Below the pieces are notes generated by a model. That model did no database searches. It saw only the letters and a program-made list of their open reading frames with translations, and had not been told where the DNA came from. Below are positions 9,675 to 46,662 of a DNA stretch of 64,000 nucleotides, in pieces (the first letter of the stretch is position 1; the number at the start of each line of letters is the position of its first letter). The position numbers were made by a program, and so were the translations under genes. Source of the stretch: Sandarakinorhabdus limnophila DSM 17366 (lineage in GTDB: Bacteria > Pseudomonadota > Alphaproteobacteria > Sphingomonadales > Sphingomonadaceae); contig NZ_ATVO01000007.1 in assembly GCF_000420765.1 (NCBI RefSeq), positions 1 to 64,000 on the forward strand, read 5' to 3'.

Positions 9675-11717
9675 ATGCAATCGGGCAACACGCGATCACG
9701 GCCAGCGGAGACGGTGTTGGCCGCAGCGACAGCGCAGCTGGCGACCGATCCGGCTGCCGCTCTGGCCGTGGCCGAAGATCTGTTGGCCAGCGCGCCCGAT
9801 CTGCTGCCGGCGCAATTGCTGGCGGGCCAGGCGCTGCGCCATTTGGGCCAGTTCGATGCGGCCGTTGCGCGGCTTTCGGCGCTGGCGGCACTAGCACCCA
9901 CTGTGCCGGCCGTGCGCTGGGAACTGGCGCAGGCCGCCGTCGCTGCCGGCCAGCCGGAAGTTGCCATCACCGCGCTTGAACAACTGACCCGGCAATTGCC
10001 GGCGGTGCCGGGCGGCTGGTTCCTGCTCGCCAACCAATATCGCGCCGCCGGCCGCGCCCGCGATGGCTGGCTGGCCGATCTGAAGGGCGTGAACGCCGCC
10101 ACGCAGGATGCCGAACTGGTGCAGGCCGCCCTGGCCATGCAGCAGGGCAAGCTGGATGATGCCGCCGCCCTGCTGGTGGCGCGCCGCGTGCGGGCCGGCG
10201 ATGATCCCCCCGCCAGCCGGCTGGCGGCGGAAATCCGCTGGCGCCAGGGCGACATGCCGGGCGCCATCGCCGGGCTGGAGGCGGTGCTGAACCAAGCACC
10301 GGGCTATGACATGGCGCGCGAATTTCTGATTCGCCTGCTGGTGCAATCGAACCGCTTGCCCGATGCGCTGGTGCATGCAGAATTGCTGGCCACCTCGCCG
10401 GTGGACAATCCCGGCCATGATCTCATCCTCGCCTCCGTGCTGGTGCATCTGGGCGAACAGGGCCGGGCGCGCGACCTGTATGAAGGGCTGCTCGCCCGCA
10501 ATCCCGGCCAGCCGCAGGTGTGGCAGAACCTTGGCCACGTGCTGAAGACGCTGGGCGAACAGGCCGGCGCCGTTACCGCCTATCGTGAAGCCGTCACCCG
10601 CCAGCCCACCTTGGGCGAAGCCTGGTGGAGCCTGGCCAATCTGAAGACGGTGAAGCTGGGCGCGGCCGACATTGCCGCGATGGAGGCGGCTTTGGCCGCG
10701 CTCGCCGGGCAGGAATCGCCGCGCGCCGAAGACCTGTTCCACATGCATTTCGCGCTGGGCAAGGCGCACGAGGATCTGGGCGAATCGCAAGCCGCGTTCC
10801 GCCATTACACGGAGGGCAATCGCCTGCGCCGCGCCGGGATCGTGCATGATGCCGATGCCTTCTCCGCCGAAATCGATGCCGCCGTTTCAACCTTCACCGC
10901 GCCATTCCTCGCGGCACGCCGGGATGGCGGGTGCCCCGCGCCCGATCCCATCTTCATCGTCGGCCTGCCGCGCTCCGGCTCCACGCTGATCGAGCAGATC
11001 CTTGCCAGCCACAGCCAGGTCGAAGGCACGATGGAACTGCCCGACATGATGATGATCGCCAGCCGGCTGGCCGCGCGGGTGGAGGCAGGGGAATTTGCCG
11101 ATTTCGGTTCGATGATGGCGGCGCTCACCCCGACGGATCGCCAGCGGCTGGGCGAGGAATATCTCGAACGCACCCGCATCCACCGCAAGTCCGGCAAGCC
11201 GCGTTTCATCGACAAGATGCCCAACAACTGGCAGCACGTCGGCCTGATCCGGCTGATCCTGCCGAATGCCACCATCATCGATGCCCGCCGCCACCCGATG
11301 GGCTGCTGTTTTTCGGCGTGGAAACAGCATTTTGCCCGCGGGCAGGGCTTTTCCTACGATCTGGTCGACGTGGGCCGCTATTACCGCGATTATGTGCGGC
11401 TGATGGCGCACTTCGATGCCGCTGCCCCCGGTGCCACCACCCGAGTCGTCTATGAGGAGATGGTGGCCGACACCGAAACCCAGGTGCGCCGCCTGCTCAG
11501 CGCTGTCGGGCTGGCGTATGAGCCGGCCTGCCTTGAATTCTGGCGTAATGATCGCGCGGTGCGCACCGCCAGTTCCGAACAGGTGCGCCAGCCGATCTTC
11601 ACCGACGGCGTGGACCATTGGAAGGCCTATGCCGCCTGGCTGGGTCCGCTGGGCGAAACATTGGGCGATGTGGCAACGCTCTATCCGGCGGTGCCGGCGT
11701 CATTGTCGCCTATTTGA
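9675..11717 (+). CDS. TPR-repeat sulfotransferase
   Basis: 680 residues with no signal peptide, so cytoplasmic. Residues about 10-400 are tetratricopeptide-like helical repeats; residues about 424-660 form a sulfotransferase domain. The PAPS phosphosulfate loop is PIFIVGLPRSGSTLIE (425-440), and IIDARRHPMGCCFSAWKQ carries the Arg expected to bind the 3'-phosphate. The acceptor is unknown. The family is widespread in sphingomonads and often lies beside a TonB receptor, as here (divergent). A strong ribosome site, AGGGGGAGC, precedes the ATG. Its 3' end overlaps the convergent cytochrome c gene by 8 bases. Confidence 0.88.
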   Translation: MQSGNTRSRPAETVLAAATAQLATDPAAALAVAEDLLASAPDLLPAQLLAGQALRHLGQFDAAVARLSALAALAPTVPAVRWELAQAAVAAGQPEVAITALEQLTRQLPAVPGGWFLLANQYRAAGRARDGWLADLKGVNAATQDAELVQAALAMQQGKLDDAAALLVARRVRAGDDPPASRLAAEIRWRQGDMPGAIAGLEAVLNQAPGYDMAREFLIRLLVQSNRLPDALVHAELLATSPVDNPGHDLILASVLVHLGEQGRARDLYEGLLARNPGQPQVWQNLGHVLKTLGEQAGAVTAYREAVTRQPTLGEAWWSLANLKTVKLGAADIAAMEAALAALAGQESPRAEDLFHMHFALGKAHEDLGESQAAFRHYTEGNRLRRAGIVHDADAFSAEIDAAVSTFTAPFLAARRDGGCPAPDPIFIVGLPRSGSTLIEQILASHSQVEGTMELPDMMMIASRLAARVEAGEFADFGSMMAALTPTDRQRLGEEYLERTRIHRKSGKPRFIDKMPNNWQHVGLIRLILPNATIIDARRHPMGCCFSAWKQHFARGQGFSYDLVDVGRYYRDYVRLMAHFDAAAPGATTRVVYEEMVADTETQVRRLLSAVGLAYEPACLEFWRNDRAVRTASSEQVRQPIFTDGVDHWKAYAAWLGPLGETLGDVATLYPAVPASLSPI

Positions 11718-12174
11718 TCACACCAGTTTCCGCCAGCTTGGCACGCAGGGCGTTATTTTCAGCCATGCTCACCCGGCCGGCGGTGCGCACCGCGGCGATT
11801 TCGGCGGCCTTGAACGGCTTGGCCGGCTTGGCCGGCTTGCCCAGCGTGACGGCGTGGCTCAGGATTTCGGCGATCTCGGCATCCGCCATGCTGGCCATGC
11901 CCGGCATTACGCCCATCAACGGCGCGCCTTCCACCGTGATCGGGCCGGCCATGCCCCACAGCACGACGCGCGCCATATAGGCCCGCCCTTCCGGGCTTTG
12001 GGCGATGGCGGCGGCGCGGGTGGCCAAGCGCGGAAACTGGCCGGACAGACCTTCGCCGCCGGCCTGATGGCACATGGCACAGCGCGCCACGAACGCCGCC
12101 TTGGGTTCGGCCGCCGCCGGCATTGCCACCCCGGCTCCAACAGCCAAAGCCAAAAGCCAGCGATTTGAAATCAT
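11710..12174 (-). CDS. Periplasmic monoheme cytochrome c, paralogue of the 16124 cytochrome
   Basis: 154 residues: a signal peptide (MISNRWLLALAVGAGVAMPAAA), a heme c site CAMCH (C32, C35, H36) and a Met-rich stretch PLMGVMPGMASM likely holding the axial Met. The C-terminal part (KPFKAAEIAAVRTAG) clearly resembles KPFTAAEVAVGRTKA in the cytochrome at 16124-16714, so the two are paralogues. ATG 12174 is chosen because AAGGAAAAA precedes it; an ATG at 12192 would weaken the signal peptide. It diverges from the TetR gene and probably carries electrons from the amine dehydrogenase; that is inferred from position. Confidence 0.82.
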   Translation of the reverse strand: MISNRWLLALAVGAGVAMPAAAEPKAAFVARCAMCHQAGGEGLSGQFPRLATRAAAIAQSPEGRAYMARVVLWGMAGPITVEGAPLMGVMPGMASMADAEIAEILSHAVTLGKPAKPAKPFKAAEIAAVRTAGRVSMAENNALRAKLAETGVIK

Positions 12175-12329
12175 GCCGATTTTTCCTTGCAATCAGGATG
12201 GGGCGGCCCAGCGTGGGCCACGATGTGCGGCAAATACTGGACAGTCATCAAGGCGGCGTCAAGCCGTCCTCCATGGGGCAAACCGCGCATCGCTGGACGC
12301 CGGCAGACGGCTGCGTTAAGCCGGATACA

Positions 12330-12995
12330 ATGACAAAAACAGCCGAAAAGCCGGCGCGAACAGCGCCTGTGCGTCCGGGGATCTATGGGCGCGGCACCGA
12401 AACGGTGGATCTGATCCTGAATGCCGCGCTGGATGTGCTGGTGGAAGAAGGCGCGGCGGCCTTCACCCTGCGCCGGATCGCGACGCGCTGCGGCATGCAG
12501 GTGGGCCGCCTGTCTTATCATTTTGCCCGCAAGGAGTTGCTGATCCAGCTGCTGCTCGATGATCTGCTCGATTATTATGAGCGCATGCTCGACGAAACGG
12601 TGCGCCAGCCGCACCTCGATCCGGCCGAACAGCTGCGCCGGATGATTACCCTGGTGCTCGATGATATCGGTACCAAGCGCACCACGCATGTGTTCACCGA
12701 ACTCTGGGCGCTGTCCAATCACAATCCGGCGGTGGCGGAACGGGTGGCGGCCTTCTACCGCTATGCCCACGCCAATATCGCGGCCGCCATCGCGCCGCTC
12801 AATCCGGCGCTGTCGCCCGCGCAGCTGGACGTGGTGGCACGCTTTGTCAGTTCCGCGCTGGAAGGCACCACCATCTTTGCCGGCCACGGCAAGCCCTGGG
12901 CCCACCAGATGCCGCAAATGCAGCGCCTCGCCGTGCACGCCCTGCTGCACCTGGCCCGCACCATAAAGCCCGAAGACCTGCCCGATCTCGGCTGA
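12330..12995 (+). CDS. TetR-family transcriptional regulator
   Basis: 221 residues, the usual TetR length. The N-terminal DNA-binding domain has LILNAALDVLVEEGAAAFTL followed by the helix-turn-helix RRIATRCGMQVGRLSYHF (about 53-70). The C-terminal ligand domain is divergent. It lies between a cytochrome c gene on the minus strand and the amine dehydrogenase operon on the plus strand, so it may respond to an amine or its aldehyde and repress one or both. ATG 12330 is chosen because upstream in-frame starts would add a non-conserved leader running into the divergent promoter. Confidence 0.85.
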   Translation: MTKTAEKPARTAPVRPGIYGRGTETVDLILNAALDVLVEEGAAAFTLRRIATRCGMQVGRLSYHFARKELLIQLLLDDLLDYYERMLDETVRQPHLDPAEQLRRMITLVLDDIGTKRTTHVFTELWALSNHNPAVAERVAAFYRYAHANIAAAIAPLNPALSPAQLDVVARFVSSALEGTTIFAGHGKPWAHQMPQMQRLAVHALLHLARTIKPEDLPDLG

Positions 12996-13050
12996 AACCC
13001 GCTACGTTATTCAGGCATTGTGCCGGCCGGCGCGCTGGCTTGACGAATAC

Positions 13051-13064
13051 TTGACGTGCGTCCA
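13051..13064. promoter_or_regulatory. Candidate TetR operator upstream of amine dehydrogenase operon
   Basis: TTGACG-TG-CGTCCA is an inverted repeat of two 6-base halves with one mismatch and a 2-base centre, about 113 bases before the mauB start. Another TTGACG half-site lies 10 bases upstream (13040-13045). The form fits a TetR-family operator for the adjacent regulator. No matching site was found in the 12175-12329 divergent region. Confidence 0.4.
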
Positions 13065-13176
13065 GTCTGAAGTTGCATGGCGCCGGGTATCCGGTCGCCG
13101 GTTCGGAGTCGCCGGTCCGTAAGTGGGCAAGCGGGCGGTCGCCGAATGGGCATTTGGGGGAAGGGCTTTGGCAAGC

Positions 13177-14379
13177 ATGATCAGTGCAACAACCATGGCA
13201 GGGATTGGCCGGCTGGCAGGCACGGTCGCGATTTCGCTGCTCGCCCTTGCTGCCGCACAGGCCCAGCCGGCCGCCGCGCCGGCGCCAGCCGCCACGATGG
13301 CCCCGGTCGAGCCGGAAGAGCCCTTCACCCACAAACTGCCGGAATGGTCCCCGCACTGGGGCTTCGTGCGCGGCGGCTGGGAAAGTGGCGGCACCCGCAT
13401 CTGGAACGGTGATACCGGCAAGATGGTCGGCCTCGTTTCCACGGGTCGCTGGTCCGATCTCGCCCTCGATCCCAAGCGGCGCTTCATCTACGTTTCGGAA
13501 AGCATCTGGACCAAGGTGAACCGCGGCACCCGACAGGACATGATCTCGGTCTATGATTCGGTGAACATGGCGCTGGTGACGGAAATTCCGCTGCCGGGCC
13601 GGCTGATCATCGGCACCATGAAGAACAATTTCGTCATCAGCGATGATGGCAAGACGGGCTTCGTCTATGATTTCAGCCCGGCATCTTCGGTGATCGTGGT
13701 TGATCTGGAAAAGCGCAAGGTTGGACAGGTCGTCGAACTGCCGGGCTGTGCCAGCCTCGTGCCGGTGACAGGCATCGGCTTCTCGGCGCTGTGCTCAGAT
13801 GGCACCATCGCCACGGTGACGGTGGGCCCGAAAACCTCCACCGTCAGCCACAGCCAGCCCTTCTTCAAGGCCGCTGAAGACGGCGTGTTCGATTTCTTCA
13901 CCTATGATCGCACCAAGGGTGAGATCGTGACGCTCACCTACACCGGCCTTATCCGCACGGTGAAGCTGGGCGCGGCGCCCACCATCGGCGATGCCTGGTC
14001 GATCCAGGCGGCGGCGGGTGTGCGCCCCGGCGATACCCGCCCGCTGGACATCAACTGGTTCCCTGGCGGCCGCGCGGCGACGACGCTGCACCGCGCCACC
14101 GGCATGCTTTATGTGCTGATGCACCGGGGCGAATACTGGACCCAGAAGGCCGATGGCGAGGAAATCTGGGTGGTCAACATGGCCACCCGCAAGGTCGTCA
14201 AGCGTGTGCCGCTGAAAAAGCCGATCGGCAATATCGAGGTGACGCAAGACGCCAAGCCACTGATCTTCCTGTCGGGTGACGAAGGCGTGGTGCAGGTGAT
14301 GGATGCCGCCACCTACGAGATCAAGCATGACATCGAACGCGGCGGCGGCGGCATGATCGTCGTGCCGGACGTGGATTGA
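13177..14379 (+). CDS. mauB: TTQ amine dehydrogenase large (heavy) subunit
   Basis: 400 residues, the normal length of the beta-propeller heavy chain of methylamine or aromatic amine dehydrogenase. A signal sequence (GIGRLAGTVAISLLALAAAQAQ) sends it to the periplasm. Propeller-like repeats are visible (RRFIYVSESIWTKVNRGTRQ, ISVYDSVNMALVTEIPLPGR, LYVLMHRGEYWTQKADGEEI, EIWVVNMATRKVVKRVPLKK, VVQVMDAATYEIKHDIERG). The YWTQKADGEEIW segment matches the heavy-chain signature. The heterotetramer oxidises a primary amine to aldehyde and ammonia. ATG 13177 follows GGGGAAGGG by 11 bases; GTG 13123 and ATG 13195 are alternatives. The next gene starts immediately after its stop. Methylamine and aromatic amine types cannot be told apart here. 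Confidence 0.85.
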   Translation: MISATTMAGIGRLAGTVAISLLALAAAQAQPAAAPAPAATMAPVEPEEPFTHKLPEWSPHWGFVRGGWESGGTRIWNGDTGKMVGLVSTGRWSDLALDPKRRFIYVSESIWTKVNRGTRQDMISVYDSVNMALVTEIPLPGRLIIGTMKNNFVISDDGKTGFVYDFSPASSVIVVDLEKRKVGQVVELPGCASLVPVTGIGFSALCSDGTIATVTVGPKTSTVSHSQPFFKAAEDGVFDFFTYDRTKGEIVTLTYTGLIRTVKLGAAPTIGDAWSIQAAAGVRPGDTRPLDINWFPGGRAATTLHRATGMLYVLMHRGEYWTQKADGEEIWVVNMATRKVVKRVPLKKPIGNIEVTQDAKPLIFLSGDEGVVQVMDAATYEIKHDIERGGGGMIVVPDVD

Positions 14380-14910
14380 GTGGAACAGGCGCTGCCTCTT
14401 CTGGGTGTGGCGGCCAGCGTCGCTGTGGCGCTGCTGTTTGCCGTCGCCGGCATCGACAAGCTGCGCCACCGCGATCTGCTGCCCGGCGTGATCGCCAACT
14501 ATCGGTTGCTGCCCGATGCACTGGTGGCGCTCGCTGCGGCGGTGCTGCCGGGGATGGAACTGCTGGTGGCGGCCGGGCTGCTGCTGGGCTTTGCCCCGCT
14601 TGCGCCGATGGTGGCCATCGCGCTGCTGCTGGTTTTTGCGGCGGCCATGGCGATCAACATCGGGCGCGGCCGCCGGCATATCGATTGCGGCTGCGGCCAT
14701 GTGGGCTTGCGCCAGCAACTGGGCTGGAGCCAGGTGGCGCGCAACCTCGTGCTGGCTACGGCACTGTTGCCGGCGCTGGCGGCAGGGCGGGCTGATCTGG
14801 GCATGGCCGATGTGGGCCTTGGCGCGGCGGCGGGCGTTGCCCTCTATCTGTTGTTGCTGATGTTCTCGGCAGTGGGCGCATTGGTTGCGTCGGCGCCCAA
14901 GCAGGGTTGA
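14380..14910 (+). CDS. mauE: MauE-type membrane protein for amine dehydrogenase maturation
   Basis: 176 residues, GTG start directly after the mauB stop. About five hydrophobic segments make it an inner-membrane protein of the MauE/DoxX-like group: LFAVAGIDKLRHRD near the N-terminus and IDCGCGH at about 105-111, the conserved Cys pair of MauE. MauE is known to be needed, with MauD, for making or stabilising the disulfide-rich small subunit. Position between B and D matches mau and aau clusters. Confidence 0.85.
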   Translation: MEQALPLLGVAASVAVALLFAVAGIDKLRHRDLLPGVIANYRLLPDALVALAAAVLPGMELLVAAGLLLGFAPLAPMVAIALLLVFAAAMAINIGRGRRHIDCGCGHVGLRQQLGWSQVARNLVLATALLPALAAGRADLGMADVGLGAAAGVALYLLLLMFSAVGALVASAPKQG

Positions 14911-14922
14911 GGAAGGGTTTTG

Positions 14923-15528
14923 ATGTCAACCTTGGGACTCATCAACGAAGCGCTGCAGTGGCTGGTCCTGATCGGCCTGGGTGTGGCTGGCTTGGCGCTG
15001 GCGCGGCAGGTGGGCGTGCTGCATGTGCGCGTGGCCCCGGCCGGTGCATTGGATGCCAATCGCGGCCCCGCCATTGGCGACAAAGCGCCGGTAACGCCGG
15101 TGACGACGCTGGAAGGGCGCCCCTATCTGATCGGCGGCCCGGCCCAGGGCCTGCAACTGCTGATGTTCGTTTCGGCCTCCTGCCCGATGTGCAAGAGCCT
15201 GATTCCGGTCGCCAAGTCGTTCGCCGCCGCAGAGCGCGTGAGCCTGGTGTTCGTTGGTGATGATGATCCGGCCGCGCAGAGGGCGCTGGTCGCCAAGCAT
15301 GATCTGGCGGCCTTCCCGTTCATCAACAGCGACGTTGTCGGCCGCCTGTTCGAGGTGGACAAGCTGCCCCACGCCGTACTGCTCGATGCGACCGGCACCG
15401 TGCTGGCCAAGGGGCTGGTCAACAGCCGCGAGCATTTCGAAAGCCTGATCATCAGCCACGAGATGGGCGTGCACAGCGTTCAGGATTATATTGCTGGTCT
15501 GCCGACACCGGCGAAGGTGGACGCATGA
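14923..15528 (+). CDS. mauD: MauD-type thioredoxin-like protein for small-subunit disulfides
   Basis: 201 residues: an N-terminal membrane anchor (LQWLVLIGLGVAGLALAR) and a periplasmic thioredoxin-like domain with the redox motif SCPMC (C87, C90) and a cis-Pro type region KLPHAVLLDATG. MauD is the family protein that handles the many disulfides of the TTQ small subunit. ATG 14923 is chosen over TTG 14920; AGGAAGGG precedes it. The stop overlaps the mauA start as ATGA. Confidence 0.88.
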   Translation: MSTLGLINEALQWLVLIGLGVAGLALARQVGVLHVRVAPAGALDANRGPAIGDKAPVTPVTTLEGRPYLIGGPAQGLQLLMFVSASCPMCKSLIPVAKSFAAAERVSLVFVGDDDPAAQRALVAKHDLAAFPFINSDVVGRLFEVDKLPHAVLLDATGTVLAKGLVNSREHFESLIISHEMGVHSVQDYIAGLPTPAKVDA

Positions 15529-16103
15529 GCGGCAAGGGGAGCCAAGGGGGAAAAGGCATGAAGCGTTTCGATATCGATGGCCTTGGCGAGAAGCTGCTGC
15601 GCAAATTTGCCGGCAACAGTTCGCGGCGTTCCTTCCTCACCAAGCTGGGGGCCACGATCGTGGCCGCGCCGGCCTTCCCGTTGCTGCCGGTCAGCCGGGC
15701 CAGCGCCGCCACCAAGGATCGTTCGCCCGAGGCCAAGACCGCCTTTGCCCGCAACGCCCAGACCAAGGATGACACCAAGTGCGATTACTGGCGCTATTGC
15801 GCCATCGATGGCAGCCTGTGCTCCTGCTGCGGCGGCGGCATGAGCAGCTGCCCGCCCGGCGCCGAGCCCTCGCCGGTGTCGTGGGTCGGCACCTGCATCA
15901 ATCCCGATGACGGCAAGGCCTATCTGATCGCCTATCGCGATTGCTGCGGCAAATCGGCGTGTGGCCAGTGCGGCTGCGACAACACCGATCGCGAAACCCA
16001 GCTGTACATGCCGCAGCTGAACAACAACGTGATCTGGTGCTTTGGCACCAAGAGCATGGAATATCACTGCTCCACCGCCGTTCTCGTCGGCAAGGCTTCG
16101 TGA
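15525..16103 (+). CDS. mauA: TTQ amine dehydrogenase small subunit
   Basis: 192 residues carrying the TTQ cofactor. A twin-arginine signal (SRRSFLTKLG, 33-42) exports it folded. The mature part is cysteine-rich. The TTQ tryptophans are W120 (SPVSWVGTC) and W171 (NNVIWCFG); their spacing of 51 equals W57/W108 in Paracoccus methylamine dehydrogenase, and D95 and D139 fall exactly at D32 and D76, the maturation and catalytic Asp. The sequence mixes aromatic-type (CSCCGG, PSPVSW) and methylamine-type (AYRDCCG, VGKAS) features. ATG 15525 overlaps mauD; an alternative ATG 15558 has a better ribosome site (AAGGGGGAAAAGG). Maturation normally needs the diheme enzyme MauG, which is not in this window. 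Confidence 0.93.
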   Translation: MSGKGSQGGKGMKRFDIDGLGEKLLRKFAGNSSRRSFLTKLGATIVAAPAFPLLPVSRASAATKDRSPEAKTAFARNAQTKDDTKCDYWRYCAIDGSLCSCCGGGMSSCPPGAEPSPVSWVGTCINPDDGKAYLIAYRDCCGKSACGQCGCDNTDRETQLYMPQLNNNVIWCFGTKSMEYHCSTAVLVGKAS

Positions 16104-16123
16104 CGCGCGGGCAGGGCTGAACC

Positions 16124-16714
16124 ATGGCTCTGCCCACACGTTCGGTCTGGGCGCCGGCTGGCGCACTGGCGGGGCTGTTGCTTCTGGTGGCCGCCGCCCC
16201 GCCGGCCGTTGATTACCGCGCCCCCGGCGATGAAACCGGCCTGCCGGTCAGCTACCCGGCCGATATGGACGTCGCGCAATCCGATTATGTCGAACAATGC
16301 GGCGGCTGCCACGGCATCAAGGGCAATGCCGCGCCGGCTGAACTGCCCAATCTGCAGGGCCGCGTCGGCTGGTTCATGTGCCTGCCCGAAGGCCGCGATT
16401 ATCTGATGCGGCTGCCCAACATCGCCCGCAGCCGCATTGACGACAACGAACAACTCGCCGCGCTGATGAACTTCATGGTGTTCGGCCTGGGCGGCAAGTC
16501 CACGCCCGCCGGCACCAAGCCCTTCACCGCCGCCGAAGTTGCGGTTGGCCGCACCAAGGCCTTCACTTCGGTTAGCCTGATCAAGACCCGCGCACAGATC
16601 GTCGAAAAGGTGATCCAGAAATGCGGCGCGCCGGCCTCCTTGCGGCTGATGTATCCGCAAGGAACCAGCGCCATGCCGGTGCTGGCTGCGGCCGGCAAAC
16701 CGCCCAAATCCTGA
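16124..16714 (+). CDS. Periplasmic cytochrome c of the amine dehydrogenase operon
   Basis: 196 residues: signal peptide (about 1-25), then heme c site CGGCH (C59, C62, H63). The rest has no second heme motif. It starts 20 bases after mauA and is likely the electron acceptor for the dehydrogenase or the next carrier, filling the place amicyanin or azurin take elsewhere. Its C-terminal half resembles the cytochrome at 11710-12174 (KPFTAAEVAVGRT versus KPFKAAEIAAVRT). It has a C-terminal extension (about 170-196) the other lacks. Confidence 0.85.
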   Translation: MALPTRSVWAPAGALAGLLLLVAAAPPAVDYRAPGDETGLPVSYPADMDVAQSDYVEQCGGCHGIKGNAAPAELPNLQGRVGWFMCLPEGRDYLMRLPNIARSRIDDNEQLAALMNFMVFGLGGKSTPAGTKPFTAAEVAVGRTKAFTSVSLIKTRAQIVEKVIQKCGAPASLRLMYPQGTSAMPVLAAAGKPPKS

Positions 16715-32885: not shown

Positions 32886-34028
32886 ATGAACGATTGGCCT
32901 GATATCCGCGCCGCAGTGGCGAAACTCTGTACTGGCTTCCCCGGCGAATATTGGCGGGCGAAGGACAAGAGCAGCGCCTATCCCATTGAATTTGTGCAGG
33001 CGTTGACGCGCGAAGGCTGGCTTTCGGCGTTGATTCCGGAAGAGTTTGGCGGCTCTGGCCTGCCGCTGTCGGCGGCCTGCGCGATATTGGAAGAGATCCA
33101 CGCCAGCGGCGGCAATGGTGCGGCGGCGCATGCGCAGATGTATGTGATGGGCACATTGCTGCGCCATGGTTCGACGGCGCAAAAAGGCCAATATTTGCCG
33201 GCCGTTGCGCGGGGCGAGCTGCGCCTGCAGGCCTTTGGCGTGACCGAGCCAACGTCGGGCAGTGACACGCTGTCCTTGCGCACGACAGCAGTAAGGGACG
33301 GCGACAACTATCTGATTAATGGTCAGAAAATTTGGACCAGTCGCGCCGCGCAGAGCGATCTGATGGTGCTGCTCGCCCGCACGACGCCCAAGGATCAGGT
33401 GGCCAAGCGCACCGAGGGCCTGTCGGTGTTCCTGCTCGACATGCGGGATTGTCCCGGCCTTTCGATCCAACCGATTGAAACCATGATGAATCATGGCACG
33501 ACGGCGGTGTTCTTTGACAATGTGTGCATCCCCGCCGCCAATCGCATCGGGGAGGAAGGGCAGGGCTTTCGCTATATCCTGTCCGGCATGAACGCAGAGC
33601 GGATCCTGATCGCCGCCGAATGCATCGGCGATGCGCGGTTTTTCCTCGATCGCGCAACCAGTTACGCGAAGGAGCGCCAGGTGTTTGGGCGCCCCATCGG
33701 GCAGAACCAGGGCATCCAGTTCCCGCTCGCCCAGGCCCACGCCCGCGCTCATGCCGCAAAGCTGGTCGTCGCCGATGCCTGCCGACGTTACGAGTCCGGC
33801 GAAGTGGCCGGGGCGGAGGCCAATATGGCCAAGATGCTAGCCGCCGAAGCCAGCTGGCAGGCCGGCGAGGCGGCGATGCAGACTCTGGGCGGATTCGCCT
33901 TCGCCGCCGAGTATGACATTGAGCGCAAGTTCCGGGAAACACGGCTTTATCAGGTCGCGCCGGTCTCCACCAACCTGATCCTCGCCTATATCGCCGAGCA
34001 TGTGCTGGGCCTGCCCAAGAGTTACTGA
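32886..34028 (+). CDS. Acyl-CoA dehydrogenase, first gene of CoA operon
   Basis: 380 residues, full ACAD fold. FAD-binding signatures FGVTEPTSGSDT (117-128) and INGQKIWTS (144-152), and the C-terminal GGFAFAAEYDIERKFRE. The usual catalytic Glu near the C-terminus (YEGT) is Gln356 (LYQVAPVST). E238 in MNAERI sits at the alternative base position used by isovaleryl-CoA and long-chain enzymes, so activity is likely retained. Substrate may be a branched acyl-CoA. It starts the run of five further genes to 39731. Confidence 0.88.
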   Translation: MNDWPDIRAAVAKLCTGFPGEYWRAKDKSSAYPIEFVQALTREGWLSALIPEEFGGSGLPLSAACAILEEIHASGGNGAAAHAQMYVMGTLLRHGSTAQKGQYLPAVARGELRLQAFGVTEPTSGSDTLSLRTTAVRDGDNYLINGQKIWTSRAAQSDLMVLLARTTPKDQVAKRTEGLSVFLLDMRDCPGLSIQPIETMMNHGTTAVFFDNVCIPAANRIGEEGQGFRYILSGMNAERILIAAECIGDARFFLDRATSYAKERQVFGRPIGQNQGIQFPLAQAHARAHAAKLVVADACRRYESGEVAGAEANMAKMLAAEASWQAGEAAMQTLGGFAFAAEYDIERKFRETRLYQVAPVSTNLILAYIAEHVLGLPKSY

Positions 34029-34101
34029 GACTGCCAAAAACCGCAATCGACGCAGGCGCCGACAAGCGTAGGGTACGCCGGTTCCATAAGGGAGAAGATC
34101 A

Positions 34102-35355
34102 ATGGCCGAAGCCTATATCATCGATACCGTCCGCACCCCGCGTGGCATTGGCAAGGTGGGCAAGGGCAGCCTGGCTGACATGCACCCGCAGCACCTCGCC
34201 GCGGCCGTGCTGAAGGCCATTGCCGAACGTAACCATCTGAATACGGCTGAAGTTGACGATATCATCTGGTCCACCTCCACCCAGAAGGGCAAGCAGGGCG
34301 GCGATCTTGGCCGCATGGCCGCGCTTGATGCCGGCTATGATCTGAAGGCCAGCGGCATGACGCTGGATCGCTTCTGCGGCGGCGGCATCACTTCGGTGAA
34401 CCTGGCTTCCGCCCAGATCATGAGCGGCATGGAAGATCTGCTGATCGCCGGTGGCACCGAGATGATGAGCTATACCGCCACCATGGCCCAGGAAGAGCGT
34501 GCGGCCGGTCTGCCGCCGATGATGATGGGCAGCGGCAACGCCCGCCTGCAGGCGCACCACCCGCAAAGCCACCAGGGCGTGTGCGGTGATGCCATCGCCA
34601 GCATGGAAGGCATCAGCCGCGCCGATGTTGACGCGTTGGGCCTGGAAAGCCAGAAGCGCGCCGCGCAAGCCATTGCCGAAGGACGCTTTTCCAAGAGTGT
34701 GATCCCGGTTTACCGCGAAGACGGCACGCTGGCGCTGGATCATGAAGAGTTCCCGCGCCCGCAGACCACGATGGAAGGCCTGTCGGCGCTGGAGCCGAGC
34801 TTCACCAAGATCGCGGACATGCCGCTGGACGCGCAGGGCACGACCTTCCGCAAGCTGATCAACGCCAAATATCCCGATCTGAAGATCGAGCATATGCACC
34901 ATGCCGGCAACTCGTCGGGCGTGGTCGATGGCGCCGCCGCCGTTTTGCTGGCCAGCAAGGCCTATGCCGAAAAGAACGGCCTGAAGCCGCGCGCCCGTAT
35001 CGTGACCATGGCCAACATGGGCGATTGCCCGACACTGATGCTGAATGCGCCGGTGCCGGCCGCCCGCAAGGCGCTGGCCAAGGCCGGGCTTACCGTTGAT
35101 GATATCGACCTGTGGGAAATCAACGAAGCCTTTGCCGTGGTTGCGGAAAAGTTCATCCGTGATCTGAAGTTGGATCGCGACAAGGTGAACGTGAACGGCG
35201 GCGCCATCGCGCTGGGCCATCCGATCGGCGCCACCGGTTCGATGCTGATCGGCACGGTGCTTGATGAACTGGAACGCCGCGATCTGAAGCGCGGCCTGGT
35301 GACGATGTGCGCGGCTGGCGGCATGGCCCCGGCGATCATTATCGAGCGCATGTGA
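34102..35355 (+). CDS. Thiolase (acetyl-CoA acetyltransferase family)
   Basis: 417 residues. Nucleophile C92 in LDRFCGGG, GHPIGATG (372-379, with H373) and CAAGGMAPA (C403) complete the thiolase active site. NEAFAV is also present. It cleaves a 3-ketoacyl-CoA to acetyl-CoA plus a shortened acyl-CoA, or runs the condensation. GGAGAAGA precedes the ATG. 73 bases follow the ACAD gene, 22 precede the CoA transferase. The other thiolase at 38535 is distinct, so two different ketoacyl chains may be handled. Confidence 0.9.
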   Translation: MAEAYIIDTVRTPRGIGKVGKGSLADMHPQHLAAAVLKAIAERNHLNTAEVDDIIWSTSTQKGKQGGDLGRMAALDAGYDLKASGMTLDRFCGGGITSVNLASAQIMSGMEDLLIAGGTEMMSYTATMAQEERAAGLPPMMMGSGNARLQAHHPQSHQGVCGDAIASMEGISRADVDALGLESQKRAAQAIAEGRFSKSVIPVYREDGTLALDHEEFPRPQTTMEGLSALEPSFTKIADMPLDAQGTTFRKLINAKYPDLKIEHMHHAGNSSGVVDGAAAVLLASKAYAEKNGLKPRARIVTMANMGDCPTLMLNAPVPAARKALAKAGLTVDDIDLWEINEAFAVVAEKFIRDLKLDRDKVNVNGGAIALGHPIGATGSMLIGTVLDELERRDLKRGLVTMCAAGGMAPAIIIERM

Positions 35356-35377
35356 TTGCAGAGCGGGGGAGGGGCTG

Positions 35378-36586
35378 ATGTACCAGCTCCTCTCCGGCCT
35401 GCGCGTCGTTGAAGCGGCGGCCTTTGTCGCCGGGCCGACCGGCGGGCTTTATCTGACCCAGATGGGCGCCGAGGTGATCCGCATCGATCAGATCGGCGGT
35501 GGCCCGGATTACAAGCGCTGGCCGCTGACCAAGGCTGGTGACAGCCTCTATTGGGAGGGGCTGAACAAGGCCAAGCGTTCCATCCAGATTGATCTGTCGC
35601 GCGCTGAAGGCCGCGAGTTGGCCCTCGCCCTGGCCACCGCGCCGGGCGACGAGGCCGGCCTGTTCCTAACCAATTTTCCGGTGGATGGCTTCTTGTCTCA
35701 CGCCAATCTCGCCGCGCGCCGGCCGGACATCATCACCGCACGTATCATGGGCTGGGCCGACGGCAAGCCGGCGCTGGATTACACGGTGAATGCCGCCGTG
35801 GGTGTGCCAGCAATGACCGGGCCGGTGGACGACACGCGCCCGGTGAATGCCGTGTTGCCGGCCTGGGATCTGCTGGGCGGCACCTGGGCGGCGTTTGCGA
35901 TGGTCAGCGCGTTGCATCGCCGCCGGCAGACGGGGGAGGGAGCCGAGATCCGCGTTCCGCTGTCGGATTTGGCGGCCACGTCGCTGTCTCACCTCGGTTT
36001 TGCTGCCGAAGCCCTGTTGCAGGGGGATCGCGGCCGGTTGGGCAATGATCTGTTCGGCGCGTTCGGGCGAGATTTTGCCACCGCAGATGGCCTGCGCATT
36101 TACCTTGTCGCCATCACGCCGAAACAATGGCGCGGCTTGGTGGCGGCGCTGGGCTTGGGTGAGGCCGTGGCGGCGGTGGAGGCCGCGACTGGCGCTGATT
36201 TCACGGCCGATGAAGGTGCCCGCTTCACCCATCGCGGCCTGCTGTTCCCGTTGTTCGAAGCGGCGATGGCGGCGCAGAAACTTGTCGAGCTTGGCCCACG
36301 CCTTGATGCGGCCGGCGTGACCTGGGGTCCCTATCAGACATTGGCTGAGGCCGTGCACGGCGATGCGCGGCTGTTCACCGCCAACCCGATTTTCCAGACC
36401 ATCACGCACAAATCCGGCCTCACCTATCCCGCTGCCGGTCCGGCGGCGACGCTGGCTGGCGAACCGCGCGGCCCGGTGCGCCCGGCGCCGCAATTGGGGG
36501 CCGATACCGATCACGTGCTTGGCGAGGTGCTGGGGCTGTCCGGCAGCGCCATCGGCGCGTTGCATGACAAGGGGCTGGTGGCATGA
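35378..36586 (+). CDS. Family III CoA transferase resembling mesaconyl-CoA C1-C4 CoA transferase/isomerase (Mct)
   Basis: 402 residues, CaiB/BaiF fold. The catalytic Asp is D164 (VLPAWDLLGG). It shares with Chloroflexus Mct (2-methylfumaryl-CoA isomerase) the unusual opening GLRVVEAAAFVAGPTGG, the IGGGPDYKRWP segment (39-49), LNKAKRSIQIDL, LFGAFGRDF, VTWGPYQT and VRPAPQLGADTD; this comparison is from memory. Mct moves CoA within mesaconate. The overlapping next gene is an HTD2-type hydratase, like Meh, which acts next. Ribosome site GGGGAGGGG. A general CoA transferase for another dicarboxylate is the main alternative. Confidence 0.75.
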   Translation: MYQLLSGLRVVEAAAFVAGPTGGLYLTQMGAEVIRIDQIGGGPDYKRWPLTKAGDSLYWEGLNKAKRSIQIDLSRAEGRELALALATAPGDEAGLFLTNFPVDGFLSHANLAARRPDIITARIMGWADGKPALDYTVNAAVGVPAMTGPVDDTRPVNAVLPAWDLLGGTWAAFAMVSALHRRRQTGEGAEIRVPLSDLAATSLSHLGFAAEALLQGDRGRLGNDLFGAFGRDFATADGLRIYLVAITPKQWRGLVAALGLGEAVAAVEAATGADFTADEGARFTHRGLLFPLFEAAMAAQKLVELGPRLDAAGVTWGPYQTLAEAVHGDARLFTANPIFQTITHKSGLTYPAAGPAATLAGEPRGPVRPAPQLGADTDHVLGEVLGLSGSAIGALHDKGLVA

Positions 36587-37383
36587 CGCCCGAAGACATC
36601 GCCCATTGGCAAAGCTGGTGTGGCAAGCCGGAATGGCGCGAGGAGGTGCTGCACGGCCCGGATGTGGTGCGGCTGGCCGAGGCGTTGAGTTGGGACGTGG
36701 AGACGCTGGGCTGGCCGCCTTTGGGCCATCTTGCGCTGTTCCTGCCGCCGCCCGGCCAGCGCGGGGTGGACGGCCACCCGGTTCGCGGCGGTTTCTTCCC
36801 GCCGGTTTTCTTGCCGCGCCGCATGTTCGCCAGTGCGGACTATCAGTTTCATCGCCCGCTGATCGCCGGCATGCCCGCCATGCAGATGCGGGTGCTGGAA
36901 AGCCTTGCGCCCAAGCATGGCAAGACCGGCACGCTGCTGCTCGGCCAGGTGCGGATCGAGATCTGGCAGGAGGGCGAAAAGGCGCTGGAGGAAGTGCAGA
37001 CGATTGTGTGGCGCGATGATGGCCCGCCCGTGCCGCTGCCTATCCCCGTAAGTCCGCCGCCCACGTGTGATGTCGCCTTCACCCCCGGCCCGGTGCAGCT
37101 CTTTCTGTTTTCCGCCGCCACCGCCAACGCGCACCGCATCCATTATGATCTGGCCCATGCAAGCGGCGAGGAGGGCTATCCCGGCCTTGTTGTCCACGGC
37201 CCGCTGGTGGCAGCGCAACTGCTTGGCCTGTGGGAACAGCGACACGGGCCGGCGAAGACATTCGCCTTCCGGGCCCAGGCGCCGCTATTCGCCGGGCAGC
37301 CGATTGCGCTGGCAGCGAGTGATGATGGCTTGCAGGCGCTGCGCTGTGACGGCACGGTGGCAATGCAAGCGAACGCGGGGTGA
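36583..37383 (+). CDS. HTD2-type / FAS1-like hydratase resembling mesaconyl-C4-CoA hydratase (Meh)
   Basis: 266 residues. The C-terminal hot-dog half shows ANAHRIHYDLAHASGEEG and YPGLVVHGPLVAAQLLGL, the His and VVHGPL motifs of HTD2-type hydroxyacyl-thioester dehydratases, the group that includes Meh. The N-terminal half is a decayed second hot-dog domain (PEDIAHWQSWCGKPEWREE). It would hydrate an unsaturated dicarboxylyl-CoA, (S)-citramalyl-CoA being the Meh product. ATGA overlap with the CoA transferase gene. No citramalyl-CoA lyase is encoded nearby. Confidence 0.75.
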   Translation: MTPEDIAHWQSWCGKPEWREEVLHGPDVVRLAEALSWDVETLGWPPLGHLALFLPPPGQRGVDGHPVRGGFFPPVFLPRRMFASADYQFHRPLIAGMPAMQMRVLESLAPKHGKTGTLLLGQVRIEIWQEGEKALEEVQTIVWRDDGPPVPLPIPVSPPPTCDVAFTPGPVQLFLFSAATANAHRIHYDLAHASGEEGYPGLVVHGPLVAAQLLGLWEQRHGPAKTFAFRAQAPLFAGQPIALAASDDGLQALRCDGTVAMQANAG

Positions 37384-37389
37384 AGCGCG

Positions 37390-38538
37390 ATGGACACTGA
37401 AACCTTTGGTCTGCTGAAAGACCAGCTGGCCCGCTATGTCGAAGAACGGCTGATCCCGGCCGAAGACTCGGTGGAAGAAGCCGACGATATCCCGCCCGAT
37501 ATCGTAGCCGAATTCAAGGCGATGGGCCTGTTCGGCCTGTCGGTGCCGGAAGAGTTTGGCGGCCTTGGCCTGACCATGGCGGAGGAATCGCAGCTGGTAC
37601 GCATCCTCACCCGCGCCAGCGTCACCTTCCGCAGCCTGATCGGCACCACGGTCGGCATCGGCAGCCAGGGCATCATGATCGAAGGCACGGCGGAACAGAA
37701 GGCCACGTGGCTGCCGAAGTTCGCCACCGGTGAGGCCATTGCCAGCTTCGCGCTGACTGAGCCGGGCGCCGGTTCCGATGCGGCGTCCTTGCGCTGCTCG
37801 GCGGTGCGCGAAGGCGATCATTACCGCATCAACGGCACCAAGCGCTACATCACCAACGCCCCACGCGCGACGGTGTTCACCCTGATGGCGCGGACGGAAC
37901 CCGACGTGAAGGGCGCCGGCGGCATCAGCGCCTTCATCGTGCCCGCCGACAGCCCCGGCATCTCGCTGGGCAAGCCCGATCGCAAGATGGGGCAACGCGG
38001 GGCCAAGACCTGCGATGTGATTCTGGAAGACGTGATGGTGCCCGCCGCCAACATCATCGGCGGCGTGCCCGGTCAGGGTTTCCGCACCGCCATGAAGGTG
38101 CTCGATCGTGGCCGCATCCACATCGCTGCCGTTGCACTGGGCATGGCGGACCGGCTGATCGACATGAGCCTGACTTACGCCATGGAGCGCCAGCAATTCG
38201 GCAGCCGCATCGGCGATTTCCAGCTGGTGCAGGCCATGCTGGCCGATATGGAGGTGGATCGGTTGACCACCGCTGCCCTGCTTGAGCGCACCGCCGCGCG
38301 CTTTGATGCCGGCCAAGTCAGCGCCCGCGAATGTTCGGTGCTGAAACTCCACGCCAGCGAGGGCGTGGGCCGCATTGCCGATCGCGCCGTGCAGATCCAC
38401 GGCGGCGCCGGTTACATGGCGGAATACAAGGTGGAACGTTTCTATCGCGATGTACGGCTGCTCAGGATCTATGAAGGCACCAGCCAGATCCAGCAGACGA
38501 TCATCGCCAAGGCCATGATGCGGGAGAAGACCCAATGA
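37390..38538 (+). CDS. Acyl-CoA dehydrogenase, canonical catalytic Glu
   Basis: 382 residues. FAD-binding ASFALTEPGAGSDAASLRC, INGTKRYITNA, C-terminal GGAGYMAEYKVERFYRDVR and the standard catalytic E362 (RIYEGTSQIQ). Position E238-equivalent is Gly (DRGRI), so it uses the short/medium-chain type active site, unlike the other ACADs here. Starts 6 bases after the hydratase gene with GGGGTGAAG before the ATG, and its stop overlaps the thiolase start (ATGA). Confidence 0.9.
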   Translation: MDTETFGLLKDQLARYVEERLIPAEDSVEEADDIPPDIVAEFKAMGLFGLSVPEEFGGLGLTMAEESQLVRILTRASVTFRSLIGTTVGIGSQGIMIEGTAEQKATWLPKFATGEAIASFALTEPGAGSDAASLRCSAVREGDHYRINGTKRYITNAPRATVFTLMARTEPDVKGAGGISAFIVPADSPGISLGKPDRKMGQRGAKTCDVILEDVMVPAANIIGGVPGQGFRTAMKVLDRGRIHIAAVALGMADRLIDMSLTYAMERQQFGSRIGDFQLVQAMLADMEVDRLTTAALLERTAARFDAGQVSARECSVLKLHASEGVGRIADRAVQIHGGAGYMAEYKVERFYRDVRLLRIYEGTSQIQQTIIAKAMMREKTQ

Positions 38539-39731
38539 GGCGCGCAGCAATTGTTTCCCCCATTCGCACTGGGGTTGGCCGTTTTGGTGGGTCGCTGGCG
38601 GGCTTTCCGGCCGGCGAATTGGGCGCGATCATCCTGAAGGCGCTGGTGGAGCGCACGAAGATCGATCCGGAACGCGTGGACGACGTGGTGTTCGCGCACG
38701 GCTACCCCAACGGCGAGGCGCCGTGCGTGGCGCGCTGGTCGTGGCTGGCGGCGGGCTTTCCCGAATCCGTGCCAGGCGTCTCGCTCGACCGGCGGTGCGG
38801 ATCGGGCCTGCAGGCGGTGATCGATGCATCGATGCGGGTGGCAACGGGCGCGGCTGATATCGTTGTCGCCGGCGGCGTCGAAAGCATGAGCCAGGTTGAA
38901 TATTACAGCACCGATCACCGCAATGGCGCCCGCATGGGCAGTACCACTTTCCACGACCGCCTGGTGCGGGGCCGGGTGATGAGCCAGCCAATTAGCCGTT
39001 ACGGCGTGATTTCAGGCATGATTGAAACCGCCAACAATCTGGCCAAGGATTATGGCATCAGCCGCGAAGAATGCGATGCCTATGCCGCGCAAAGCCACCA
39101 GCGCGCCGCCAAGGCCTGGGCAGACGGCAAATTCGTCGATGAACTGGTGCCGGTGGAAATCCCGCAGAAGAAGGGCCCGCCCATCATCTTTGCGGCGGAC
39201 GAGGGCATCCGCGCCGACGCGACGCCGGAAAGCCTGGTGCTGTTGAAGTCCATCGAGAAAGACGGCGTGGTGACCGCCGGCAACGCCAGCCAGCAGAACG
39301 ACGGGGCGTCTGCTTGCCTCGTGGTGGCCGAAGAGCTCCTGGAACCGCTGGGCCTTGAACCTATGGCCTGGCTGACCGGCTGGGCCGCGGCCGGCTGCGA
39401 CCCGTCACGCATGGGCATCGGCCCAGTGCCGGCGGTGGAGCGGTTGTTCGCGCGGACCGGCATGAAATGGGATGATATTGATCTGGTCGAATTGAACGAA
39501 GCCTTTGCACCGCAAGTGCTGGCGGTGTTGAAAGGCTGGGGCTGGAACGACCCCGACAAGCTCAATGTCAACGGCTCCGGCATTAGCCTTGGCCACCCGA
39601 TCGGGGCAACTGGTGGGCGCATATTGGCGACGATGTTGAACGAAATGCACCGCCGTGATGCACGGTTCGGATTGGAGACCATGTGCATCGGCGGTGGCCA
39701 GGGATTGGCGGCCATCTTTGAGAAAGCATAA
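38535..39731 (+). CDS. Thiolase (acetyl-CoA acetyltransferase family)
   Basis: 398 residues. C88 in LDRRCGSGLQ, H354 in GHPIGATG, C384 in MCIGGGQG and NEAFAP make a complete active site. Last gene of the 32886-39731 operon. A decayed copy of its last ~45 codons is found at 40473-40605, beyond the PEP-CTERM gene, so the 3' end has been duplicated. Confidence 0.92.
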   Translation: MRRAAIVSPIRTGVGRFGGSLAGFPAGELGAIILKALVERTKIDPERVDDVVFAHGYPNGEAPCVARWSWLAAGFPESVPGVSLDRRCGSGLQAVIDASMRVATGAADIVVAGGVESMSQVEYYSTDHRNGARMGSTTFHDRLVRGRVMSQPISRYGVISGMIETANNLAKDYGISREECDAYAAQSHQRAAKAWADGKFVDELVPVEIPQKKGPPIIFAADEGIRADATPESLVLLKSIEKDGVVTAGNASQQNDGASACLVVAEELLEPLGLEPMAWLTGWAAAGCDPSRMGIGPVPAVERLFARTGMKWDDIDLVELNEAFAPQVLAVLKGWGWNDPDKLNVNGSGISLGHPIGATGGRILATMLNEMHRRDARFGLETMCIGGGQGLAAIFEKA

Positions 39732-39820
39732 GAGGAATCGCGCCAAGGCCATTGTCTTGTTTGTGTTTTCTTAACGTTAATACATTATGTCATCGCCCGG
39801 GGTCGACGCGGAGCAAGCAC

Positions 39821-40471
39821 ATGATTGTGCGTTCAATCGCATTTGGATTGCTGGTCATTGCTGCGGTTCCAGCGCAGGCCGTCGTGGCCATTCCAGGGCT
39901 GTTCAACAGTGGCCGGCTAGCCAATAATTCGGCTGTCACAACCGGCACAGTGCAAGAACAGAACTGGTTCTTGAATGGCATCAGCCGGCCTTGGAATAGC
40001 GGCTCCATCAATGGCGCGTGGCTGGCCAACAACAGCGTTTCGCGTTGGATGACGCCAACCAGCAACGGCAACCAATCGCTGGACCCCATTTCAAACGGCT
40101 TCTACACCTATTCGATCGCCTTCGATCTCGGCAAATTCGTGCCCGGTACGGCGAGCTTCAACGGCCGTTTCGCGTCCGATAATACGGTGACCTCGATCCT
40201 GCTCAATGGCACCCAGATCACCCAGGCCGGACTGGGGACATTCAACCAGTGGACCAGTTTTTCGGCCGGCACCGGCTTTATTGGCGGTCTCAATACGCTC
40301 AGTTTTCGGCTTCTCAACCTCGCCTAGGCCAATGGCAACCCCTCAGGCTTGCGCGTTGAAATCCTGAGCAGTGCTTATGAGCCGGTGCCGGAACCGGCCA
40401 GTTGGACGATGATGATCGCCGGCTTTGGCATGGTGGGCACCATTTTGCGCCGCCGCACCGCCATGGCCTGA
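39821..40471 (+). pseudogene. PEP-CTERM protein gene with in-frame amber stop
   Basis: A frame of 217 codons with a signal peptide (MIVRSIAFGLLVIAAVPAQA) and, at 190-212, the sorting signal VPEPASWTMMIAGFG plus basic tail, interrupted by TAG at codon 169 (40325-40327). Before it reads LSFRLLNLA and after it ANGNPSGLRVEI, with no shift of frame. The simplest origin is CAG (Gln) to TAG. The shortened 168-residue product would be secreted without its anchor unless the stop is read through. The domain before it is a beta-rich extracellular type rich in Asn and Gly. ATG 39821 has GGAG before it. Confidence 0.85.
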
Positions 40472-40472
40472 C

Positions 40473-40605
40473 CAGCCCTATAACTGGCGGGCGCACATTG
40501 GCTTCGATGTGCCACGAAATGCAGCGGTGAAAGGCCCATTTTGGATTGCAGACCATGTATATCGGTGGTGGCCAAGGACTGTCCGCCATCTTTGAAAGTG
40601 TCTGA
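40473..40605 (+). pseudogene. Decayed thiolase 3'-end fragment
   Basis: From 40483 the frame reads T-G-G-R-T-L-A-S-M-C-H-E-M-Q-R-stop-K-A-H-F-G-L-Q-T-M-Y and then IGGGQGLSAIFESV-stop, matching the last 41 residues of the thiolase at 38535-39731 (TGGRILATMLNEMHRR..., MCIGGGQGLAAIFEKA). It has one internal stop and about one lost base at the left edge. It carries no start and cannot make an enzyme. Confidence 0.9.
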
Positions 40606-40792
40606 TCACCTCTGTGTCAAGTTGTTAACTTCTTTCCGCTTTGTTGGACCTTCATAGTTTGGTAACAGAGACTTGAGTGTGATTCGGGGGAGTCAGTCGC
40701 GTACAGGGGCGTTCAGTCACGATCGCGGCAAACTTCTCCAGATCGGGGCAATCGCCCTTCAGCAACGGCTAACCCCGGTCGGGGGCTAGGAG

Positions 40793-40830
40793 CGGTGCCA
40801 GTCCTTGTGGGCTGGCACCGTTTTCTTTTT
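40793..40830 (+). terminator. Rho-independent terminator with no gene directly before it
   Basis: 12-bp stem (CGGTGCCAGTCC / GGGCTGGCACCG, one mismatch), short loop, then a T-rich run (TTTTCTTTTT, 40821-40830), ending 18 bases before the CoA transferase ATG. The 185 bases upstream hold no reading frame of note. They may encode a small RNA or a leader that controls the 40848 gene; a candidate start region is the AT-richer stretch at about 40620-40680. Confidence 0.65.
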
Positions 40831-40847
40831 CCGGTTACCTCCAGATC

Positions 40848-42035: not shown

Positions 42036-42103
42036 CCTGGATTTTACGTAAAACGACGATAATTACACCCGTATTGGATGCATAGTTGCGGGTGGCAAGA
42101 GTG

Positions 42104-42502
42104 ATGGAAGATCGTGATACCGACGTCGGCGGCGTTGTTTGGGTGCGGCGCGCCTTCTTGGTGATGTCGGCATTGTGGTTGGTAGTGCAGGGCCATCTTG
42201 GCAGTTTTCTGGGGCGCTGGGATGAAAGCCATCTCGCCGGCAATATCTGCTGGCTGCTGATCTTCTATTGCCTGGCGCGGACGTTGCTGGATTGGGGCCT
42301 GACCAGCCTTCGCCTGCACCGCCTGTCATCCGATGCCTTGTTTCTGCTCGCCGTGATGCTGGGCTTGGAAGTGGCGTGGCGGGCCATCGCCGGGCCGAGC
42401 GGGATGGCGGAAAGTGCTGGCTTTGCGACCTTCGTGATGCAGCCCTTCTTGGTGGTGATCGGGATGGCCACGCTGCACCGCCGCGCCTTCAACGCCCGCT
42501 GA
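42104..42502 (+). CDS. Small integral membrane protein of unknown function
   Basis: 132 residues with about four membrane helices (VWVRRAFLVMSALWLVVQGH, ICWLLIFYCLARTLLDWGL, ALFLLAVMLGLEVAWRAI, GFATFVMQPFLVVIGMATL). The N-terminal MEDRDTDVGG is acidic. ATG 42104 is chosen; in-frame TTG 42086 and GTG 42101 are alternatives. It is followed at once by the end of the facing crotonase gene. No family recognised. Confidence 0.6.
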   Translation: MEDRDTDVGGVVWVRRAFLVMSALWLVVQGHLGSFLGRWDESHLAGNICWLLIFYCLARTLLDWGLTSLRLHRLSSDALFLLAVMLGLEVAWRAIAGPSGMAESAGFATFVMQPFLVVIGMATLHRRAFNAR

Positions 42503-42503
42503 A

Positions 42504-43304: not shown

Positions 43305-43313
43305 TTCACTCTC

Positions 43314-45200: not shown

Positions 45201-45317
45201 GGCAGCAGCTTAGGCGCAGCTTTCGTCTGCGCACAGGCTGGAGTTTCCGCCAGCCATTGCAGCCCGCCATTGCGGCCCCCCATTGCCCCTCTGCGCCGCC
45301 TCGTCCACGATTGCGCC

Positions 45318-46661: not shown

Positions 46662-46662
46662 A

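Follow-up and report, generated by a model that had tools for sequence, protein, structure and literature searches.

The closest described counterpart of the locus considered here is that of the aromatic amine dehydrogenase (AADH) of Alcaligenes faecalis, which forms its tryptophan tryptophylquinone (TTQ) cofactor without MauG, the diheme enzyme of the mau-type methylamine dehydrogenase (MADH) systems. The A. faecalis aau cluster is reportedly arranged as aauBEDA-orf-2, without mauG and with orf-2 coding for a monoheme cytochrome, and the authors who described it may already have proposed a role for orf-2. To our knowledge, the formation of TTQ in MauG-less enzymes has been an open matter since the aau cluster was sequenced. 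Here we describe a mauBEDA locus within a stretch of 64,000 nucleotides of Sandarakinorhabdus limnophila DSM 17366 (contig NZ_ATVO01000007.1; the whole stretch is called the window below), part of a genome of 2,613,739 bases in 11 contigs. No MauG-family gene was found in this genome at E<=0.001, and directly 3' of its mauA lies the gene of a monoheme c-type protein, CytA, which accompanies TTQ enzymes of this kind in the genomes compared and is our candidate for the enzyme that completes TTQ in place of MauG.

The locus very likely encodes a TTQ amine dehydrogenase. The original prediction, made from the window alone, had read mauB, mauE, mauD and mauA in that order, and Pfam and NCBIfam matches on the plus strand bear this out (Table 1); because PF02975 matches mauA, the only such gene in the genome, at E 1.8e-54, its identity is not a matter of chance. 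The TTQ tryptophan pair W120/W171 and the aspartates D95 and D139 stand where they had been placed when residues are counted from 15525, as is done here; judging from relatives, the start may lie at 15558. No row of the small-subunit alignment (121/121 non-mau, 6/6 mau) departs from W120, W171 and D139, D95 is kept in 117/121 and 6/6, and nine of the 14 cysteines of the window protein are invariant in 127/127 rows. The residue two after the first TTQ Trp is Ala in all six mau rows and Gly in the 121 others, the window having Gly122. Against the MADH equivalog TIGR02658 the mauB product falls far below the cut-off (149.5 bits against 454.45); the mauA product passes TIGR02659 (201.1 bits, cut-off 196.85). 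The NCBIfam name ‘methylamine dehydrogenase (amicyanin) small subunit’ thus fits loci that are not of MauG type at all. Overlooked in the original reading of the interval were two c-type cytochrome genes at its ends, CytA and, upstream of the operon in divergent orientation, CytU.

The same prediction had stated that neither MauG nor MauF is encoded in the window, and profiles for MauG, MauF and MauJ built here agree, none of them matching in the window. The genome search for mauG-like diheme enzymes that it had suggested gave no match to PF03150 or TIGR03791 at E<=0.001 in the whole, 99.99% complete genome. At E<=10, PF03150 touched only pieces of two other multiheme proteins, a four-heme protein (L002) and a c-type protein (L003), both named from reading their sequences; a MauG elsewhere in the genome was rejected on this basis. 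As a positive control, PF03150 matched in 5/5 mau plasmid records. Among 72 TTQ genomes, 23 had no PF03150 match. These 72 combine a set of 26 (28 minus G405 and G435; 10 without a match) and a set of 49 (to which the genome of L146 does not belong; 15 without), less three genomes found in both, two of them without a match; completeness is at least 83%, except for 38 named genomes that carry no completeness figure. TIGR03791 was set aside as a test for MauG: its cut-off of 443.85 bits is passed by one of six MauG proteins from mau loci, Paracoccus denitrificans MauG reaching 96.8 bits, and matches below the cut-off occur in 18 of 28 searched genomes and, at E<=1e-80, in 13/385 class genomes, none of which exceeds the cut-off. 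Because this model is unsafe for the purpose, the MauG-less argument rests on the 23 genomes without PF03150; the PF03150 proteins in the other 49 may have MauG function. That the window locus matures its enzyme without a MauG-family protein is strongly supported.

To see how CytA is distributed, we fetched 31 neighbourhoods from family and phylum samples, 80 named loci (the best 80 of 580 confirmed relatives, and so biased towards close ones), 13 plasmid regions out of 30 plasmid records with matches, and 13 loci from a class sample; the MauG, MauF, MauJ, CytA and CytU profiles were built from these loci. Two were left out here and in the genome counts, G405 (a 119-residue frame ending before the first TTQ Trp) and G435 (a broken frame, 22 bits), giving 135 loci, 6 mau and 129 non-mau. 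The latter amount to about 125 distinct loci, as L037/L082, L040/L109, L044/L145 and L142/L200 are probably the same DNA twice, and absence near a locus means absence within the fetched DNA, some contigs being short. In none of the 129 non-mau loci did the MauG profile match. CytA lies on the same strand, at most 2 kb downstream of mauA, in 124 of them, and is thereby commoner than mauE (117/129) or mauD (118/129). Five loci have no CytA downstream: L110, whose contig ends in mauA, and L127, L142, L200 (L142 again) and L156, and the genomes of L127, L142 and L156 have it elsewhere (131, 139.5 and 128.6 bits), beside another mauE-D-A set in the first two and, for L156, within 3.3 kb of fetched DNA that holds no mau gene. 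L127 (2362-4099) and L142 (8751-10501) are orphan mauB-mauA pairs without mauE, mauD or cytochrome, and both genomes hold a second, complete set with CytA. At L156 (3864-11227, from a K189A clade genome), mauB comes after genes that Pfam identifies as a 2Fe-2S ferredoxin and a cytochrome P450, mauE/mauD stand apart from the rest, and a second mauD-like gene lies ahead of mauA.

In the genome samples, PF02975 was found in 16/149 family genomes (18 genes), and strong CytA in the same 16 (18 genes, at least 113 bits); the other 133 had no strong CytA, the nearest match being a CytU-like protein at 51 bits. Intact PF02975 genes occurred in 11/398 genomes of the phylum sample (13 genes), with strong CytA in the same 11 (13 genes, at least 81 bits), and among the remaining phylum genomes there was no strong CytA, only two matches at 45 bits. 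Sample sizes and listed genomes agree between the paired searches; at most 10 candidates per genome were scored in the phylum sample and 27 in the family sample, so weak CytA relatives may be missed. The 51-bit (G024) and one of the 45-bit matches (G217) were rejected as CytA, since the CytU profile scores higher and the Met motif is present; G317, which gave a CytA-like match at 45 bits, is of the same genus as G217 and has no TTQ locus. Taking the family, phylum and class samples together, 41 of 43 intact small-subunit genes are MauG-less with an adjoining CytA, one belongs to an orphan mauB-mauA pair and one has mauG. These counts give no support to the original prediction's view of the missing MauG as exceptional.

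The six mau loci (P. denitrificans, P. kondratievae, P. yeei, Indioceanicola, Methylobacterium and L203 of genome G816) carry mauF, mauJ and mauG, and CytA is near by in 0/6. G816 holds the MauG-type locus L203 and a CytA-type locus, L206, and so offers a natural side-by-side comparison of both kinds.

CytA stays below every Pfam cut-off and matches nothing in NCBIfam, PF13442 alone appearing at 20 bits, below its cut-off of 27. Set beside class I cytochromes c it has the CxxCH and lacks the axial Met: in an alignment of CytA, CytU and Thermus c552, Met occupies the axial column in 53/53 CytU rows and in 0/125 CytA rows, Pro stands just before that column in 124/125 CytA rows, and the preceding loop is missing. 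(Matches lacking CxxCH, to CytA in L126 and L165 and to CytU in L113, were left out of this count.) No column of His, Met, Lys or Cys outside CxxCH reaches 70% in CytA; Asn116 is invariant in CytA (125/125) and found in 17/53 CytU rows. Set beside the MauG family, CytA has one CxxCH instead of two heme motifs and no PF03150 match, and homology to that family was rejected, although its function may be similar. The nearest solved relative of CytA is Thermus c552, both by sequence (E 2.5e-08) and by the fold of its confident AlphaFold apo model (mean pLDDT 88.5, pTM 0.80; Foldseek E 1.1e-03). The lost axial Met is the one feature pointing to an open heme site in CytA. CytU (at least 80 bits) is near by in 53/129 non-mau loci, and a universal partnership with the TTQ enzyme was rejected for it on this count. 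In genomes without a PF02975 match, a CytU-like cytochrome c occurs fused to an apparent beta-propeller (L241, 1165-2676).

On our reading, then, the locus encodes a periplasmic TTQ amine dehydrogenase of MauB/MauA type that matures without MauG. MauD and MauE would assist disulfide formation in the small subunit. CytA, with its distal heme site open, might use H2O2 or O2 to form a high-valent iron species and would then complete TTQ on the exported subunits, that is, the W120-W171 cross-link, the second oxygen and the oxidation to the quinone, a task for which MauG uses two hemes and CytA would use one. The mature enzyme would hand its electrons to an ordinary cytochrome such as CytU. We propose, with a modest lean in its favour, that CytA takes MauG's part as a maturation enzyme with a single heme, because it is a dedicated heme protein, is kept even when unlinked, is absent near MauG and is without the axial ligand of an ordinary carrier; the grouping of CytA-linked loci with the A. 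faecalis AADH chain was also counted in its favour. Such a conserved, dedicated protein would give MauG-less TTQ formation one named candidate gene, and, if the proposal is true, one heme suffices for a protein oxidation that has until now been ascribed to the two hemes of MauG. Going further, and with rather more hesitation, most TTQ enzymes might be matured by CytA acting as a protein-modifying oxidase, the textbook MauG pathway being a substitute, perhaps a later one, confined to the methylamine branch.

Several points weigh against maturation by CytA. MauG uses two hemes and CytA has one. Met is found within two columns of the axial position in 6/125 CytA rows, and between columns -4 and +6 in 29/125, so in some relatives a Met at a neighbouring position might serve as the ligand. 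Tyr93, frequent in CytA (107/125), is frequent in CytU too. The genome search for a maturase covered the MauG family (PF03150, TIGR03791), and the search for CytA in mau-type genomes covered five plasmid records and G816. The six mau loci form one clade, so the mutual exclusivity of CytA and MauG rests on a single switch, with which mauF, mauJ and mostly amicyanin changed together; for this reason exclusivity with MauG alone cannot decide whether CytA has MauG's role or amicyanin's. Furthermore, 76/129 loci have no CytU near by, and there CytA may be the sole local electron acceptor.

These last points lead to the main rival, in which CytA serves the dehydrogenase as its dedicated electron acceptor, a counterpart of amicyanin with unusual heme ligation, and TTQ is formed by another route. 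Its descent from class I electron-carrier cytochromes, with Thermus c552 nearest, fits this role, as do the loci lacking a CytU of at least 80 bits and the position of amicyanin, which follows mauA in most mau loci, CytA's place here. Yet the axial Met is absent at the aligned position throughout CytA while a normal CytU is present in 53 loci, and the Indioceanicola mau locus, which has MauG, lacks both CytA and an annotated amicyanin, so that there the absence of CytA tracks MauG and not amicyanin, and its role leans towards MauG's. We regard the acceptor role as unlikely, if worth keeping in view. Less probable still, in our estimation, is a route to TTQ through an unlinked enzyme that does not belong to the MauG family, or mainly through autocatalysis, with CytA as some other helper, for example supplying or removing electrons. 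In PMC7876137 the related cofactor cysteine tryptophylquinone (CTQ) is described as made by flavoproteins, which illustrates that different solutions exist, and the first hydroxylation in MADH as presumably autocatalytic; retention of CytA with every sampled enzyme of this type, even unlinked, would be left unexplained. A literature search that reached few subscription journals, and that included PMC7876137, PMC6405878, PMC7699789, PMC8746199 and PMC5739008, found nothing on how AADH-type TTQ forms. Lastly, that the locus is inactive or decaying and no TTQ enzyme is made is suggested by broken copies in other genomes (G435, G405) and by nothing specific to the window, where all frames are open and nothing of the TTQ site is missing; the entire cassette is also present in the close relative L080, whose small subunit is 98% identical, so we consider it most improbable.

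The trees place the locus outside both described types. The small-subunit tree (127 rows, 109 columns, bootstrap not settled) includes the A. faecalis AADH chain 2agl_D, a solved structure that we take to hold TTQ; the large-subunit tree (129 rows) is a quick one in which AADH-like loci stand in for the A. faecalis large subunit. In the former, the six mau rows make up a single clade (100/99), which joins eight CytA-type rows (99/91), and the AADH chain falls in a 13-row group (99/92) with L163, L166, L172 and others, whose loci match CytA. The window small subunit sits with Sandarakinorhabdus, Sphingobium and Novosphingobium rows, outside both; its large subunit falls on the mau side of its tree and belongs neither to the mau clade nor to the AADH-like rows. 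The outcome under which the original prediction would have called the locus ordinary, both subunits inside a mau cluster and mauG elsewhere in the genome, was thus negative in both parts, and the ‘mixed features’ that it had ascribed to the small subunit are right in a specific sense: judged by its sequences, the window locus lies in a third group in both trees, its subunits nearer to the mau clade and its accessory set AADH-like. Midpoint rooting without an outgroup puts the mau clade inside CytA-linked rows, yet the root may lie on the mau branch, and the switch between MauG and CytA may have run in either direction.

Table 1. Features of the amine dehydrogenase locus, in positions of the window
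Feature	Position	Strand	Evidence
CytU: monoheme class I cytochrome c with axial-Met motif; probable electron acceptor	11710..12192	-	PF00034 29.8 bits, above cut-off; Met in axial column
CytU, likely start	about 12174	-	
TetR/BetI-type regulator	12327..12995	+	PF13977 52.2 bits, PF00440 36.5 bits
MauB-type large subunit (possible start also 13180)	13123..14379	+	PF06433 146.7 bits
MauE, membrane redox protein	14380..14910	+	PF07291 85.1 bits
MauD, thioredoxin-like, CPMC motif	14920..15528	+	TIGR02661 164.6 bits, slightly below cut-off 188.6
MauA-type TTQ small subunit, twin-arginine-like signal SRRSFL	15525..16103	+	PF02975 182.7 bits in one search, 184 bits (E 1.8e-54) in another
CytA: monoheme c-type protein, N-terminal signal-like stretch, CxxCH, without axial-Met loop; candidate TTQ maturation enzyme	16124..16714	+	profile built here, 185.6 bits

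From its position, the TetR/BetI-type gene would be the regulator of the operon, and the same gene precedes mauB in most sphingomonad loci compared. Farther along the window, at 32886-47448, is a run of genes reading as acyl-CoA dehydrogenases, thiolases, CoA transferases and enoyl-CoA hydratases (names read from sequence, as for the next). The four-heme c-type protein of L002 (997-3107, contig C8 of the same genome) follows an apparent reaction-centre M subunit, and because of this adjacency the host is probably an aerobic anoxygenic phototroph, one with a small genome. Three other loci are possibly decayed copies: L165, a small subunit without a large-subunit match near by, L126, with split mauB and CytA matches, and L065 (9948-10307), a piece of small subunit that stops short of the first TTQ Trp.

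Compared with the known systems, the locus shares with AADH the order B-E-D-A followed by a monoheme c-type gene and the lack of mauG, given the layout reported for A. faecalis, and AADH-like plasmid loci such as L163 have the same layout. A comparison of its small subunit with the AADH light chain gives E 2.1e-44; however, the locus falls outside the AADH-containing small-subunit clade and the AADH-like large-subunit rows, and its large subunit reaches 132.5 bits with MADH against 107.8 bits with AADH. With mau MADH of Paracoccus and Methylobacterium it shares homologous B, E, D and A and the same TTQ site, and TIGR02659 is the only one of the mau tests applied that the window passes; unlike mau loci it has no MauG, MauF or MauJ match and a large subunit far below TIGR02658, and it has CytA, which mau loci lack, and Gly122 in place of their Ala. 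Thermus thermophilus c552 has the axial-Met loop, whereas CytA has neither the loop nor the Met. With MauG and the PF03150 diheme enzymes CytA has in common that a c-type heme protein is encoded with the TTQ enzyme, and the same job is proposed for it, although MauG has two heme motifs and CytA one, without a PF03150 match. MauG-less TTQ formation as a phenomenon is already known from A. faecalis AADH. What is new is its breadth (41/43 intact genes), the co-occurrence of CytA, the hosts without any PF03150 protein and the lost axial Met of CytA.

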